Shown piece after piece: positions 55,356 to 60,918 of a stretch of DNA of 64,000 nt (within the stretch, counting starts at the first letter, position 1; each line of letters starts with the position of its first letter). Position numbers and translations under genes: made by a program. The notes beneath the pieces were generated by a model that saw nothing but the letters and a program-made list of their open reading frames with translations, searched no databases and was not told the DNA's origin. Source of the DNA: Lachnospiraceae bacterium. Its GTDB lineage: Bacteria > Bacillota > Clostridia > Lachnospirales > Lachnospiraceae. The stretch spans positions 85,991-149,990 of the forward strand of contig JAFQQI010000105.1 of NCBI GenBank assembly GCA_017411305.1, read 5' to 3'.

Positions 55356-55391
55356 TAGTATGTGGTTAAAAACAACATAAGGGGCATCTAT

Positions 55392-56321
55392 ATGCAAAAC
55401 GATAAATTACTTTCTGTGATTATTCCGGCTTACAATGAGCAGGATATGATTTCCAAAACTTTTCATACGGTAAAAGAGATTCTTGATGGGGCAAATATCC
55501 CCTTTGAATTACTATTTGTAGATGACGGTTCCAAGGATATGACTTACGCCAATATTTCAGAACTGTCCAAATCCCATAGCGAAATCCGCGGTATTTCCTT
55601 TTCCAGAAACTTTGGGAAAGAATCTGCTATTTTTGCCGGACTCGAGAATGCATCCGGAGCATGTTGCGTTATTATGGACTGTGATCTCCAACACCCGCCG
55701 GCAACCATCGTGGAAATGTACCGTTTCTGGGAGCAGGGCTATGAAGTGGTGGAAGGTGTCAAAGCTTCCCGCGGAAAGGAATCTGCTTTTCACAAGCTTT
55801 GTGCCAACAGCTTTTACGGTATCATCAGCAAGGTAACCGATATTGATATGGCTAATGCTTCCGACTTTAAGCTTCTTGACAGACGAGCCATGGATGCGCT
55901 TTTGCTTATGCCGGAACGGGCACCATTCTTCCGCGCACTTTCTTCCTGGATTGGTTTTAAAACCACCTCTGTTTCCTTTGAGGTTCAGGAGCGGACCGTA
56001 GGAGACTCCAAATGGTCTATGTGGAGCCTTACCAAATACGCCATCCGGAATATTACTTCCTTCTCCGGTGCACCTATGCAGTTTGTCACCTTTATGGGAT
56101 GGATTATGTTGCTGTTTTCTGTTATATTTGCAGCCCATTCTCTGTACCGGTATTTTACCGGCACAGCGCTGGAAGGTTTCACCACTGTTATTCTCCTGCA
56201 GCTGATTATTGGCAGTGTACTTATGATCAGCCTCGGTGTGATTGGACATTATATTTCCAGAATTTATGATGAAATTAAAGGAAGACCCAGATATCTGATT
56301 AGCAAAAGGTGCGGCTATTAA
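55392..56321 (+). CDS. GT2 polyprenyl-phosphate sugar transferase (GtrB/DPM1-like)
   Basis: 309 aa. LLSVIIPAYNEQDMISK, LFVDDGSKDMTYANI and VIMDCDLQHPPATIVEM are the nucleotide and metal sites. GDSKWSMWSLTKYAIRNI precedes two C-terminal membrane segments (about 220-245 and 258-282). Full family length. It would charge the lipid carrier for the GT39-like enzymes nearby. The ATG at 55392 follows AAGGGG by 8 nt; the upstream in-frame ATG lies too near the promoter. Confidence 0.92.
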   Translation: MQNDKLLSVIIPAYNEQDMISKTFHTVKEILDGANIPFELLFVDDGSKDMTYANISELSKSHSEIRGISFSRNFGKESAIFAGLENASGACCVIMDCDLQHPPATIVEMYRFWEQGYEVVEGVKASRGKESAFHKLCANSFYGIISKVTDIDMANASDFKLLDRRAMDALLLMPERAPFFRALSSWIGFKTTSVSFEVQERTVGDSKWSMWSLTKYAIRNITSFSGAPMQFVTFMGWIMLLFSVIFAAHSLYRYFTGTALEGFTTVILLQLIIGSVLMISLGVIGHYISRIYDEIKGRPRYLISKRCGY

Positions 56322-56335
56322 TATGCCGCACCTTT
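56305..56335. terminator. Bidirectional terminator overlapping the GT2 stop codon
   Basis: A perfect 11-bp stem AAAGGTGCGGC (56305-56315) with GCCGCACCTTT (56325-56335); the stop codon of the GT2 lies in the loop. Serves the convergent LytTR gene too. Confidence 0.9.
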
Positions 56336-56336
56336 C

Positions 56337-57062
56337 TTACTCTTCCTCTATTCCTTCATAATCATATATTTTCAGTTTCTCCCAGACATACTTCTGGTAC
56401 TTCCTGCTGGGAGTAATCATCTTTTTATTACACAAGTAAATCTTTTTCCTGTCCACATTATCAATATGTCTGATATTTATCAAATAGCTGGTATGGATTC
56501 GCAAAAATCCGTAAACAGACAAATATCTCTCAATATCATCCATCTTTCCCCGGATACACTTCTTTTCCCCATCTGTAGAGAAAATATCGATGTAATGCCC
56601 GTTTGAATAAAAATAAATAATTTCATCCGGCATATATACGTGGCGCTTCCGTCCTTCTGCAACAACTACAAACTCCGGCATAGAATCCAATTTTTCTCTG
56701 TATCTGCGCAGCGCTTTAGGTAAATCTGTTTCCAAGCTGCTCTTTCTGATAAATGCAACAGGCCCGGTTCCTATGGCATCAAATACCTTATCTTCCTCAT
56801 CCGATACATACATCAGTTGCAAATAGCGCAAAGAGGGTGCCTGCATTTTGACCCATTCAATGCCGTCCTCAAAAGGGGCCTCAAAGGTAGTATCCATCAT
56901 CAACAAATCAAAGGGCAGTTCATTCTCCTCTAACTCCCTAGGCGTACTATATCCGTTAATGCACATTTCAAAATCATATTCTTTTGCCAGACGGCTTAAT
57001 TTCTCAAGCATCATCCCACGGAATGCTGCATCTTTATCTAATATTGCTACTGTAATCTTCAT
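56337..57062 (-). CDS. LytTR-type response regulator
   Basis: 241 aa. A receiver domain (about 1-120) with acidic residues Asp9 and Asp11, phospho-acceptor Asp57 (LLMMDTT) and Lys in FIRKSS, then a LytTR DNA-binding domain (about 130-235) with YMPDEIIYFYSNGHYIDIF and FLRIHTSYLINIRHI. No kinase is next to it. It is co-transcribed with the XRE gene 22 bp upstream. The promoter of that pair carries LytTR-type boxes, so it may regulate itself or answer the Agr kinase. Confidence 0.92.
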   Translation of the reverse strand: MKITVAILDKDAAFRGMMLEKLSRLAKEYDFEMCINGYSTPRELEENELPFDLLMMDTTFEAPFEDGIEWVKMQAPSLRYLQLMYVSDEEDKVFDAIGTGPVAFIRKSSLETDLPKALRRYREKLDSMPEFVVVAEGRKRHVYMPDEIIYFYSNGHYIDIFSTDGEKKCIRGKMDDIERYLSVYGFLRIHTSYLINIRHIDNVDRKKIYLCNKKMITPSRKYQKYVWEKLKIYDYEGIEEE

Positions 57063-57084
57063 GCCTGTTCCCCCACATTGCCAT

Positions 57085-57408
57085 CTAAATGCACAGCTTC
57101 TGAATTGACTTCAAAATTTCTCTGACCTGCTCAAGCTGCTGCGGATTAAGGCTTGCCAAAATCTCCATAATATCGTCAGTTGCCTTATTCTCTGCTTCAC
57201 GCCCAAGCATGACATAATCACTGCTGACGGATACCGCCTGTGCGATTTTCACCAGTGTTTCTGCCGAAAATCCTTTTCTGCCCATTTCAATTTCATAAAG
57301 GAACTTAGCCGAAATACCAACCTTCTCTGCAAATGCATCACGGGTATAATTGCTGTTTTCTCTTAAGTACTTAATTCTCTCGCCGATGGCTTTCTCTTTC
57401 TGTATCAT
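57085..57408 (-). CDS. XRE-family helix-turn-helix regulator
   Basis: 107 aa. The HTH covers about 8-65: IGERIKYLRENSNYTRDAFA, then KVGISAKFLYEIEMGRKGFS. The C-terminal part (MEILASLNPQQLEQVREIL) is helical, probably for dimerisation. It begins the XRE-LytTR operon, divergent from agrBD over 293 bp. Confidence 0.9.
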   Translation of the reverse strand: MIQKEKAIGERIKYLRENSNYTRDAFAEKVGISAKFLYEIEMGRKGFSAETLVKIAQAVSVSSDYVMLGREAENKATDDIMEILASLNPQQLEQVREILKSIQKLCI

Positions 57409-57506
57409 GCTACTTATCCCCTTTTACCAAATTTTACATTTTTTCTGCCCGGATACAAACGGTCTATAGTTCCTTCTTTCTATACCTATTGTTCCTATAA
57501 AAATGT

Positions 57507-57574
57507 ATTATCCCATATTCTTCCGAAAGAGCATCTTAATTTTTCTGAATTGTTCTATTTTCTTTCTGAATGGT
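57507..57574 (-). promoter_or_regulatory. Putative LytTR-controlled promoter of the XRE-LytTR operon
   Basis: On the minus strand two boxes, ACCATTCAG (57574-57566) and ACAATTCAG (57553-57545), are exactly 21 bp apart. A -10-like GATAAT (57512-57507) begins 32 bp after the second box, and no good -35 is present. The boxes closely resemble known ComE/BlpR-type LytTR sites. Boxes and spacing are seen; the regulator is inferred. Confidence 0.65.
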
Positions 57575-57603
57575 GCTTTTACCTCATTATTTTCCCGTTT
57601 AGT

Positions 57604-57671
57604 TGCATTCTTTCAAGATTCTGACACATTCAGTCAATCCCGTAAGAATGCCGTTTTTTTGCCCCTATAAT
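57604..57671 (+). promoter_or_regulatory. Putative LytTR-controlled promoter of agrBD
   Basis: On the plus strand TGCATTCTT (57604-57612) and CACATTCAG (57625-57633), again 21 bp apart, with a perfect TATAAT (57666-57671) 32 bp after the second box and no -35. The geometry equals that of the divergent promoter, though the first box is weaker (CATTC core only). Confidence 0.58.
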
Positions 57672-57701
57672 ACACCTATACAGGAGCAAAAGAGGAAACA
57701 C

Positions 57702-58244
57702 ATGAAAGACTTTTTAAAGAAGAATTACAACTTTACAGATTATCAGATTGCTCAACTAGGTTACTTATTTAAAACTCTATTAGGTGAACTTAGCAAAATG
57801 GTAATTATGGGAGTGCTTTTCAGAAAAGAGTTGCCACTCTATTTTGCGGCAATTATCATGCTTCTGCTGATGCGCACCAGCACAGGCGGTCTGCATTGCA
57901 AGACTTATTTCACCTGTTTATTGTCCTCCTGCGCTTATATATTCGTTTGCATCAAACTGTTACCCATGATTCCCCTTCCAATCGTCGTGCAAATCATATC
58001 CTTACCGATTTGTCTGTACATCAATTACAAGTGGGGTCCCGTAACTTCTGATATTCATATGCCTTTGACAGAAGAACAGAAAAAAAGAGGACGCATCCGC
58101 GCCCTCCTGATTATCTATATTTTCGCTATTGTAATGAGCATAATCCCTGATAACAAATATCTTATCGTTTGTTACTGGGTTATCATCGTACACTCGCTGC
58201 AGCTTGTGTACGCCAAAATCTTAAAGAAAGGAGTACAGAAATGA
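57702..58244 (+). CDS. agrB: AgrB-like autoinducer peptide protease/exporter
   Basis: 180-aa membrane cysteine protease that cuts and cyclises the AgrD precursor. Six hydrophobic segments. The catalytic pair is His65 and Cys72 in TGGLHCKTYFTC, with the same 7-residue spacing as in Staphylococcus AgrB. KKRGRIRALLIIYIF leads the last segments. The ATG at 57702 follows AGAGG by 8 nt; the frame upstream overlaps the promoter. Stop and agrD start overlap as ATGA, so the pair is translationally coupled. Confidence 0.93.
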   Translation: MKDFLKKNYNFTDYQIAQLGYLFKTLLGELSKMVIMGVLFRKELPLYFAAIIMLLLMRTSTGGLHCKTYFTCLLSSCAYIFVCIKLLPMIPLPIVVQIISLPICLYINYKWGPVTSDIHMPLTEEQKKRGRIRALLIIYIFAIVMSIIPDNKYLIVCYWVIIVHSLQLVYAKILKKGVQK

Positions 58245-58369
58245 AGCAGAAATTAATTGCATGGACAAAACCTATGCTGTGTGCTTGTATGGCATTTTCT
58301 TGGTTTATTGGTTGCGATATACCTAGCATGGTTTTTTTAGGTGAGTACCCTTACCCTTCAGAAGAATAG
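58241..58369 (+). CDS. agrD: AgrD-like cyclic autoinducer peptide precursor
   Basis: 42 aa, with GGAG 8 nt before the ATG. Layout: an amphipathic leader (KLIAWTKPMLCACMAFSWFIG), a core starting at Cys25 (CDIPSMVFLG), and a short acidic, Pro-containing tail (EYPYPSEE), the order expected of AgrD. If cut before the EYPYP tail, the ring would be larger than the usual five residues. Two additional Cys (14 and 16) are in the leader. Mature boundaries are inferred. Confidence 0.82.
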   Translation: MKQKLIAWTKPMLCACMAFSWFIGCDIPSMVFLGEYPYPSEE

Positions 58370-58379
58370 GCTATAAACA

Positions 58380-58405
58380 AAGTCCCTTTATATTTAAAGG
58401 GGCTT
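58380..58405. terminator. Terminator of agrBD
   Basis: Stem AAGTCCCTTTA (58380-58390) with TAAAGGGGCTT (58395-58405), one G-T pair, 4-nt loop, then a T-rich stretch. It overlaps the end of the convergent kinase gene. Confidence 0.8.
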
Positions 58406-59665
58406 ATTTATAATTATTGTAAAATGAAGCCTATCAGCAGTTTCTGTTTTCTTAATCGAGGTCTCCAATACAAGTTTGTATTCTTCACAAATTCTATTTA
58501 CATTATATAAACCGTATCCATGATTTCCATTTTTCTTACTATAACCTTTTTTAAAAAAATTCTGCACCTGTTCATATGTAATACCTTTGCACTCATTGCT
58601 AACATCAATAGTTATTTCATATTGATTTTCCATCATTATTACTTTCAATTTATTGAAATCCGGCGTTCTTTCCAGTGCTTCTATTGCATTATTTAAAAGG
58701 TTACCCAGTATTTCTATAACTTTATATATTGGCACATTGCTTTCAACATTTCCTATCTTAACCTTATACTCAACATCAATCCCTAATTTTTCTGCTTCAG
58801 AAAATTTACCATACAAAAATCCCAAAACGATAGGATTGCCTTTTGACAATAATTTATTGAAAGAATTCGCTTGCACTATATCTTTACAATATTTCTTTTG
58901 TGCTTCCACTAACGCATCATAAGTATGATGTAGGTAATGTTGGCTGTATATCGTATTAATGTGATTATCAAATTCGTGTTGACGCATGCAAATGTCTTCT
59001 ATTAAGCTTTGAAATGATTTTTCGTATAACTTATATACTCGTAGTTCTCGCTCTGCCTGCCTTGCTCTTAATTTGTGTTTTCCAATATCAACGCCTGTAA
59101 CTAATATAAGAATAACGCCAACTATCAGAATGGCATAATATGCCACATCAAGTCCTTCATCTTTTTTATAGTTCAATAAGCAAAATATTACGCTGACAAT
59201 AATAACAAGTAGCGATAACACAATAATTTTTTCATTGCTTTGTAAAGCAAGTGAAATTTTATAAATCTTAATTCTACTTACAAAAATTTTAATAATAATA
59301 AGCAACATTGCATTTATTATTAATGAATCTATCGCCGCCACTCTATTAAAAAAATTCAAGCTATAAAAGCATAACATCAGTGTCGTCTGTATGATACCTG
59401 TAATCATTATACAAATAACACAATTTATAACCGCTACTCGTAAACTCATTTCAAATTTATATAAACAATAAATAATAATAGCTACATATATCAGCCATGT
59501 CCACTGCCTATCTATTTGAAAAAAATATATTGCTTGCATCAAAATCACTTCAACAAACATTATACCGCATGTAATCACATCATATTTAATATTCCTTCGA
59601 TATAAATAATGTAAACAACTAATAAACGCCCATATTTCCAACAAATTACCTAAACTAACTACCAT
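58394..59665 (-). CDS. agrC: AgrC-like sensor histidine kinase (GHKL type)
   Basis: 423 aa. About six membrane segments (1-200), a coiled linker, the phospho-acceptor His in MRQHEFDNHINTIY, and a GHKL ATPase domain with N-box EILGNLLNNAIEAL and G-box KKNGNHGYGLYNVNRI. It senses the mature AgrD peptide in this kind of system. The ATG at 59665 follows GGAG by 8 nt; the longer frame uses TTG. It overlaps the upstream regulator gene by 11 bp. Confidence 0.9.
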   Translation of the reverse strand: MVVSLGNLLEIWAFISCLHYLYRRNIKYDVITCGIMFVEVILMQAIYFFQIDRQWTWLIYVAIIIYCLYKFEMSLRVAVINCVICIMITGIIQTTLMLCFYSLNFFNRVAAIDSLIINAMLLIIIKIFVSRIKIYKISLALQSNEKIIVLSLLVIIVSVIFCLLNYKKDEGLDVAYYAILIVGVILILVTGVDIGKHKLRARQAERELRVYKLYEKSFQSLIEDICMRQHEFDNHINTIYSQHYLHHTYDALVEAQKKYCKDIVQANSFNKLLSKGNPIVLGFLYGKFSEAEKLGIDVEYKVKIGNVESNVPIYKVIEILGNLLNNAIEALERTPDFNKLKVIMMENQYEITIDVSNECKGITYEQVQNFFKKGYSKKNGNHGYGLYNVNRICEEYKLVLETSIKKTETADRLHFTIIINKPL

Positions 59666-60389
59666 TTCCAAACTCCGTTGCTATCTTTTTCTTATAAGTA
59701 ACGCCGATATCCACCCGGCCCAGATTATCTTTAAACACAATATACTTATTTTGAATATCAATGCTTTCGACATAGTCTTTATTTACTATAGTGCTTCTGT
59801 TACATTGCACCAGCGGTCCTACGTCAGATTCTTCCATGATTTGCTTACATGTGACATAGGGAAACTCCGGGACAGAACCGTTTTTCAGATGAATGTGCAT
59901 GATATGCTTGATACTTTCCATATACACAATCTCTTCCACTCTGATAGGATACCAGATACCATCCTTCCGAAAAGACAGGGACACCTCCTTTTCTCTCATC
60001 GTAGTATTATTCAGTGCTCTTTCTACCAGCCTCATGATTTGCTTTGGGTCAAACGGCTTCTCAATATAACCGATACAATTCAAATCCGTATAAGCATACA
60101 TAGTTGGGTCTTCCAGTGAGGTCACAAATATTACCGGTGTAAACATATACTTCGGCACCTTACGGAAGCTTTCTACCAGATGAATACCCGAAACATCTCC
60201 CGGCCGGCTTGTATCCAAAATAATATCTGCCAACAACACATCAATCGTCTTTTCCATGAAAATTTTGTATGCTTGCATGGCGTTGTCTGCGGTATAAATT
60301 TCCGTGTTTTCATTTGTTTTCCAAACCAGCTGCCTTAGCATTTCCAACTGGTCTGCATCGTCTTCAACAATCAGTACTACTTTTTTCAT
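59655..60389 (-). CDS. agrA: AgrA-like LytTR response regulator
   Basis: 244 aa. Receiver domain with Glu9/Asp10/Asp11 and phospho-acceptor Asp55 (VLLADIIL), Lys in GYIEKPFDPKQ, then a LytTR domain (about 145-240) with RVEEIVYMESIKHIMHIHL and VQCNRSTIVNKDYV. It is first gene of the kinase operon. GGGGG precedes the ATG. It is the best candidate to bind the paired boxes upstream of agrB and of the XRE gene. Confidence 0.92.
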   Translation of the reverse strand: MKKVVLIVEDDADQLEMLRQLVWKTNENTEIYTADNAMQAYKIFMEKTIDVLLADIILDTSRPGDVSGIHLVESFRKVPKYMFTPVIFVTSLEDPTMYAYTDLNCIGYIEKPFDPKQIMRLVERALNNTTMREKEVSLSFRKDGIWYPIRVEEIVYMESIKHIMHIHLKNGSVPEFPYVTCKQIMEESDVGPLVQCNRSTIVNKDYVESIDIQNKYIVFKDNLGRVDIGVTYKKKIATEFGNGS

Positions 60390-60425
60390 AATTTCCCCCT
60401 TTATCCTTTGTAAGCCCCTTTGTTC

Positions 60426-60455
60426 ATTATACGGGCAAAATTCCTTCTGTGTCTA
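60426..60455 (-). promoter_or_regulatory. Promoter of agrA-agrC
   Basis: Minus strand TAGACA (60450-60455), an 18-bp spacer and perfect TATAAT (60426-60431). Near-consensus and without CATTCAG boxes, so probably constitutive. Confidence 0.68.
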
Positions 60456-60488
60456 CCAAATATTTCCAATTTTTGCACACACAAAAAA

Positions 60489-60518
60489 AGCCGTTCTATT
60501 TCTTTTGATAGAGCGGCT
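60489..60518 (-). terminator. Terminator of the XRE gene at 60528
   Basis: Stem AGCCGCTCTAT/ATAGAACGGCT (minus strand, one mismatch) with an 8-nt loop, followed by seven T. Confidence 0.88.
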
Positions 60519-60527
60519 CTGATTTTT

Positions 60528-60776
60528 CTATTTGGTTTCGGTTTTGTACAGGTCATAAATGGATACTCCAAATACCTCTGCTAATGTCCAAAGCTCATAA
60601 TCAGCTACCGAACGCTCTTGACGTTCAATTCTGGAAATGGAGCCTCGGCAGATGTATGTTTTTCTTCGCTGTAGCCGCATGGAAAGATCCTGTTGACTCC
60701 AGTTTCTTTCCAGTCGGTATTTCCTTACATTGGCACCTACAACATTCTGTACAAAAGAGTGATCCGGTCTTTCCAT
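60528..60776 (-). CDS. Small XRE-family regulator
   Basis: 82 aa, nearly all helix-turn-helix: VGANVRKYRLERNWSQQDLS, GSISRIERQERSVADYELW, AEVFGVSIYDLY. No effector domain. Transcribed alone and ended by a clear terminator. It lies between the agr locus and the FRG-TPR pair; which of them it controls is unknown. Confidence 0.88.
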   Translation of the reverse strand: MERPDHSFVQNVVGANVRKYRLERNWSQQDLSMRLQRRKTYICRGSISRIERQERSVADYELWTLAEVFGVSIYDLYKTETK

Positions 60777-60918
60777 GTTTTTTCTCCGTCTGTTTAGTGC
60801 AGTCTTTTGTTTTATTCCATTATCATCCTCTTTTCTATATATTTCAAATACTTTTTTATTTTTTTACCCAAATTAACGAAGTGTTCAATAATAAAAATGA
60901 AATATGCGTGTTGCAACA

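Follow-up and report, generated by a model that had tools for sequence, protein, structure and literature searches.

The intergenic region between a gene for an XRE-type regulator and agrB in this Lachnospiraceae genome carries two pairs of direct repeats, one pair on each strand and each followed by a -10 element. The question raised by the locus is which protein reads these repeats and which genes are switched through them. The reading preferred here, at a probability of about 0.8, is that the region controls an agr-type peptide quorum-sensing locus whose two divergent promoters would both be activated by phosphorylated AgrA, with an arm encoding the XRE regulator in the place of RNAIII. The window referred to below is the whole 64,000-nucleotide stretch that was analysed.

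Genes and promoter elements of the locus

In the window the gene for XRE and the gene pair agrB-agrD diverge, and agrA-agrC are convergent upon agrBD. The agrB gene (57702..58244, plus strand) encodes 180 aa and matches PF04647 at E 2e-23. The putative 42-aa pheromone precursor AgrD (58241..58369, plus strand) gave no match when Pfam and NCBIfam were searched and was assigned by position and by homology to open reading frames of relatives. AgrC (58394..59671, minus strand) is a GHKL sensor kinase recognised by HATPase_c_5, and AgrA (59655..60389, minus strand), the predicted reader of all four boxes, is a response regulator with Response_reg and LytTR domains. The staphylococcal AgrC and AgrA models matched the window proteins but far below their cut-offs. 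Small AgrD homologues follow agrB directly in relatives, and the motif S-x4-GEY was present in 25 of 25 loci (among L061-L085, one with ambiguous bases). Given that a serine four residues ahead of GEY is conserved and that no conserved cysteine stands there, the signal may be a serine-lactone rather than a thiolactone.

On the other arm, the XRE regulator (57085..57408, minus strand, 107 aa) has a SinR/ImmR-like HTH domain recognised by Pfam, and a profile of its orthologues matched the HTH chains of SinR and of the ICEBs1 Xre-family protein. Downstream of it lies a second LytTR response-regulator-like protein of 241 aa (56337..57062, minus strand; Pfam LytTR). No receiver model of Pfam matched this protein, its N-terminal half gave weak sequence matches to VraR and CheY-like chains, and a fold predicted from two sequences showed the alternating order of a receiver-like and then a LytTR-like domain. 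The mean pLDDT was 60 and the fold was therefore too weak for a fold search. Several genus members (L062-L083) have an XRE-type HTH protein of ∼229 aa upstream of agrA and in the same direction, forming a cluster of 14 proteins; in these members the agr locus is accompanied by another XRE gene. The interval 60390-60900 holds no exact TTCAG that faces agrA.

XRE starts at 57408 and agrB at 57702, leaving an intergenic gap of 293 bp (57409-57701). The XRE promoter, on the minus strand, comprises a distal box 1, ACCATTCAG (57566..57574), a proximal box 2, ACAATTCAG (57545..57553), and a -10 element GATAAT (57507..57512). The agrBD promoter, on the plus strand, comprises a distal and degenerate box 1, TGCATTCTT (57604..57612), a proximal box 2, CACATTCAG (57625..57633), and a -10 element TATAAT (57666..57671). 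On both strands the boxes follow each other at a step of 21 bp, and a gap of 32 bp separates box 2 from the -10. The left edges of the two -10 elements are 159 bp apart, and the two-promoter module occupies 57507..57671. Thus the positions put forward by the sequence-only reading, namely CATTC-core box pairs with a 21-bp step and a 32-bp gap in a 293-bp intergenic region, are borne out. Its statement that neither -10 has a usable -35 also held: a search of 57300-57800 for consensus hexamer pairs found none that uses either -10, and the two promoter-like pairs found in that interval lie off both -10s and do not exceed the number that shuffled sequences give (mean 1.7). The weak point of the arrangement is box 1 of the plus strand, which lacks the final AG and is degenerate in the window and in many relatives. 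The sequence GCATTCTT within this box (57605-57612) has an exact inverted copy, AAGAATGC, at 57644-57651 between box 2 and the agrB -10.

The proposal that the geometry is of LytTR type agrees with what is published and with the relatives described below. Published LytTR promoters carry repeats of 9 bp, in most cases spaced by 12 bp (in a few by 11 or 13 bp) and commonly placed 10 bp ahead of the -35 (PMC6193735). The 9-bp boxes of the window are separated by 12 bp on both strands, within the 11-13 bp LytTR range, and a gap of 32 bp to the -10 corresponds to 9 bp to the -35 position at 17-bp spacing, so that the layout is 9 bp-12 bp-9 bp placed ∼9-10 bp before the -35 position. In S. aureus, P2 and P3 are divergent, both are suboptimal core promoters, and each has its AgrA repeats at around -60 (PMC4227749); the pair centres in the window are at about -59, taking the -10 as beginning at -12.

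Conservation and spacing in relatives

The XRE protein was sought in 60 relatives, 54 of which gave some match, and the best 30 of these 54 loci were examined. XRE was divergent from agrB in 26 of these best 30 (L001-L026, window included), which form the footprint set. Across the genus, to which Parablautia intestinalis D8-82, P. muri D42-62 and Lachnospiraceae bacterium 10-1 belong by protein identity, XRE was present in 27 of 37 genomes (E ≤ 1e-25); one of these 27, G455, lies outside the footprint set.

Read towards agrB, 18 of the 26 gaps contain the word ATTCAGT (shuffles mean 0.76, max 3); read towards XRE, 8 of them do (shuffles mean 0.55, max 4). When the distance from ATTCAG, with one mismatch allowed, to the -10 was plotted for the 26 loci, the agrB side peaked at 32 (16 counts), followed by 53 (10 counts) and 2 (9 counts). 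Since 53 equals 32 plus 21, the second of these distances is that of box 1. On the XRE side 31 and 32 came top (9 and 8 counts), followed by 53 with 5. Ranking 272 combinations of step and gap over the 26 loci put (21,32) at the top for the agrB side; for the XRE side the leading combination was (21,31), with (21,32) in 3rd place. A composite score of at least 13 was reached by 15 of 26 and 13 of 26 loci for the two sides (shuffles 0.06 and 0.01). Three loci, L012, L021 and L025, give a weak, tied or displaced signal on one side or both, and the nearest relative, L002, is weak on the agrB side (score 11.0). The search of related genomes for the paired boxes, which had been proposed as a check, therefore found them on both strands with a gap of 31-32 bp and far above shuffles in this set of 26 loci.

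A wider scan of the genome collection gave 79 loci, made up of 26 duplicates or near-duplicates (AgrB ≥93% identical), 22 that were used and 31 that were left out as no divergent agrB was found within 700 bp. One of the 22, L143, looks to be of the same genus (XRE 89% and AgrB 84% identical). Among these 22 the combination (21,32) ranked 1st on both sides and the composite score was at least 13 in 5 of 22 and 7 of 22 for the two sides (shuffles ∼0.1); for the agrB side, the plain ATTCAG-to-(-10) histogram of the 22 lacked a peak at 32. The XRE-side boxes are ATTCAC in L167, L172 (box 1 ATCCAC) and L178 (box 2 ATCCAC), with step and gap as for ATTCAG. As far as these letters can tell, the box geometry outlives the sequence of the boxes. 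A link between an AgrA residue and the box letters was considered, R or K being found in L167, L172 and L178 where most genus members have T, and was rejected because L120 and L139 also have R despite ATTCAG-like boxes.

The distance between the two promoters is nearly fixed. In 24 of the 26 genus loci, 157-160 bp separate the left edges of the -10 elements; the count is 23 of 26 when L012, a tie between two places, is taken as a miss. In shuffles this spacing was found in 0.21 loci on average and in 3 at most. This is despite an intergenic gap length that varies by 85 bp across the genus loci. For the 24 loci kept, the standard deviation was 0.95 bp for the module length, 17.7 bp for the XRE leader and 6.5 bp for the agrB leader, and the pairwise identity of the module centre was 36% and 42% in two groups of 8 equal-length loci, where 30% is expected by chance.

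In loci beyond the genus set the -10 distances cluster near 158-160, 168-170 and 179-180. Phasing was assessed on the 22 loci together with L242, L243, L245, L252 and L253, without the duplicate L236 and with distances of 120-240 only. A Rayleigh test at 10.5 bp gave R 0.66 and p ∼3e-4 (19 of 27 loci), the 14 loci outside 156-161 gave p ∼0.01 at nearly the same phase, and a uniform null allowing any period of 8-14 bp gave p = 0.005 (16 of 22 loci). As the loci are related and the choice of -10 is noisy, these values are suggestive of a promoter spacing that may shift by helical turns. We tentatively propose, as a possibility on the doubtful side of even, that the region is a single AgrA module of near-fixed length and helical phase, in which two pairs of sites on the same face of the DNA and about six turns apart would act together, switching signal production and XRE output as a unit. 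It would be a counterpart of P2/P3 in gut Lachnospiraceae in which a protein replaces RNAIII and the output slot can be refilled with XRE, XRE plus LytTR, or LytTR alone.

The output arm and the reader of the boxes

The sequence-only reading had named an XRE-LytTR pair as the second target. The XRE part of this stands, given its presence in 27 of 37 genomes, and the pair does not, as only 2 of the 26 loci, those of the window and of G007, have the 241-aa LytTR gene downstream of XRE, other genes being found elsewhere; the contig of G034 ends 189 bp past XRE and a downstream LytTR is not judgeable there. In G026 a homologue of the 56337-57062 protein (47% identical) occupies the XRE slot divergent from agrB. 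Homologues of this second LytTR protein were seen alone beside agrB in G026 (L291) and adjoining a homologue of an 82-aa XRE protein (60528-60776) in G015 (L033) and G001 (L034). From these arrangements, the XRE and LytTR partners seem to have been swapped between loci.

The XRE leader holds two GTTCC words on the plus strand (57469..57473 and 57491..57495), both speculative candidates for XRE operators. GTTCCT words were present in 12 of the 26 loci (shuffles 1.77) and in 7 of the 22 further loci (shuffles 1.14), and in a few loci a palindrome spans the agrB -10. It is no more than suggestive that these words and the palindrome might be XRE operators. The leader words together with the likeness to SinR/ImmR would suit self-repression, and one guess is that XRE could be a feedback repressor acting on the GTTCC words of its own leader.

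To assess how rare the complete promoter pattern is, MATTCAG-N14-MATTCAG-N33-ATAAT was sought throughout the window genome (2.89 Mb, 82.6% complete), allowing at most 3 mismatches. The pattern was derived from the window's own boxes, so that conservation in relatives is the independent test. The scan gave 14 matches against 3 with the pattern reversed: the sole match without mismatch was the XRE promoter, the two with 2 mismatches were the agrB promoter and one site within an open reading frame, and eleven had 3 mismatches. By simple longest-ORF calling, 10 of the 12 matches outside the window locus lie within open reading frames, L199 faces no gene and L196 (contig C33, 3 mismatches) lies 313 nt ahead of an open reading frame; L196 is thus the only, and weak, candidate for a further target with a gene downstream. 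In 36 genus genomes a strict composite pattern gave 25 matches against 3 reversed, four of them at the agr locus (G000, G007, G015, G020). These matches were rejected as a regulon list, only those 4 of 25 being placed, by coordinates, at the agr locus. A looser two-box scan, with 130 matches against 57 reversed in the window genome, could not be sorted into targets and was rejected as a target finder.

AgrA (59655-60389) is likely to be the reader of the boxes, judging by where its gene is found. It is present in 20 of the 20 loci that reach far enough, window included, and also in genomes that lack XRE. Ten genus genomes lack XRE, and two of these, G022 and G026, have an agrB product more than 50% identical and an AgrA orthologue near agrB (57% and 68% identical respectively); no XRE orthologue was found in either, the best XRE-like matches having E 2.9e-4 and 1.3e-7. 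The sites persist in both genomes, in altered form in G026. G022 has a TTTCAG/ACTCAG pair with a gap of 32 before agrB and no convincing pair facing away from agrB, and G026 has ATTGGG at the place of the proximal box on both strands, a poor box 1 and -10s placed by hand 159 bp apart. That the sites of G026 have drifted although its AgrA is 68% identical to that of the window counts against AgrA as the reader.

Binding to their own divergent promoters is common among XRE proteins, and the XRE protein is here the conserved neighbour, with boxes co-occurring in the 26 loci. XRE itself might then read the CATTCAG boxes and repress both promoters as a divergent autorepressor, in place of AgrA. This is unlikely in view of G022, which keeps the agrB-side pair, and of G026, which has altered sites on both sides, neither having an XRE orthologue. 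Tandem direct repeats two turns apart before a core promoter are, moreover, the published layout of LytTR activators (PMC6193735). The second LytTR protein (56337-57062) could alternatively read the boxes and autoactivate its own operon. It has a LytTR domain, is encoded in the minus-strand operon and has the homologue divergent from agrB in G026, yet the boxes recur in loci where it does not follow XRE and its LytTR domain aligns poorly with that of AgrA, so that this explanation is decidedly improbable. Finally, all the loci come from relatives, some of them close, and the boxes and spacing might be a functionless inheritance from common ancestry. A module centre so little above chance identity, combined with a module length far more constant than that of the XRE leader, makes this very improbable indeed.

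We infer AgrA as the reader, the activation of the promoters and the peptide signal, and on this preferred reading AgrB and AgrD would make a cyclic peptide, which AgrC would sense and in response phosphorylate AgrA. AgrA would then bind the pair of direct repeats ahead of each promoter, both promoters being weak and lacking a -35, and would recruit RNA polymerase. Raised expression of the agrBD arm would give positive feedback, and raised expression of the other arm would allow the SinR/ImmR-like XRE to relay the signal, to damp the loop, or both. In the window genome and in one relative the XRE transcript would also carry the second LytTR response regulator.

Comparison with known systems and significance

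Promoters of bacteriocin and competence genes of the ComE/BlpR type carry tandem LytTR boxes at two helical turns, and the window promoters are alike in this; a difference is that the peptide would here be processed by an AgrB-type protein. The SinR/ImmR repressors resemble XRE in that the profile of XRE orthologues matches their HTH chains, but XRE is here linked to agr.

Staphylococcus agr is similar in having divergent P2 and P3, each with an upstream direct-repeat pair and a suboptimal core promoter, as described in PMC4227749. It differs in that the output arm here encodes XRE, sometimes with LytTR and once with LytTR instead, rather than RNAIII, and in that agrCA here is a separate convergent operon rather than part of agrBDCA. 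At E ≤ 5 the RNAIII model matched nowhere in 56000-60800; the RNA model search gave a single match, to RefA9 (E 4.9), elsewhere and below its cut-off. The LytTR Regulatory Systems HdrRM and BrsRM share the 9-12-9 direct repeats ∼10 bp upstream of the -35, and their promoters show positive autoregulation (PMC6193735). They differ from the present locus in that no membrane inhibitor partner is found in the operon and an AgrC/AgrA two-component pair is found instead; no co-transcribed membrane inhibitor follows the XRE and LytTR genes, the next gene (55362-56321) being on the opposite strand. No description of a divergent XRE-agr module in Lachnospiraceae was found in the literature searched, which consisted largely of papers available without subscription.

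The locus thus offers a protein candidate for the output arm of agr in gut commensals such as Parablautia intestinalis D8-82 and P. muri D42-62. The boxes give exact sites to mutate, and the near-invariant distance between the promoters would make the locus well suited to testing whether helical phase lets divergent LytTR sites work together.
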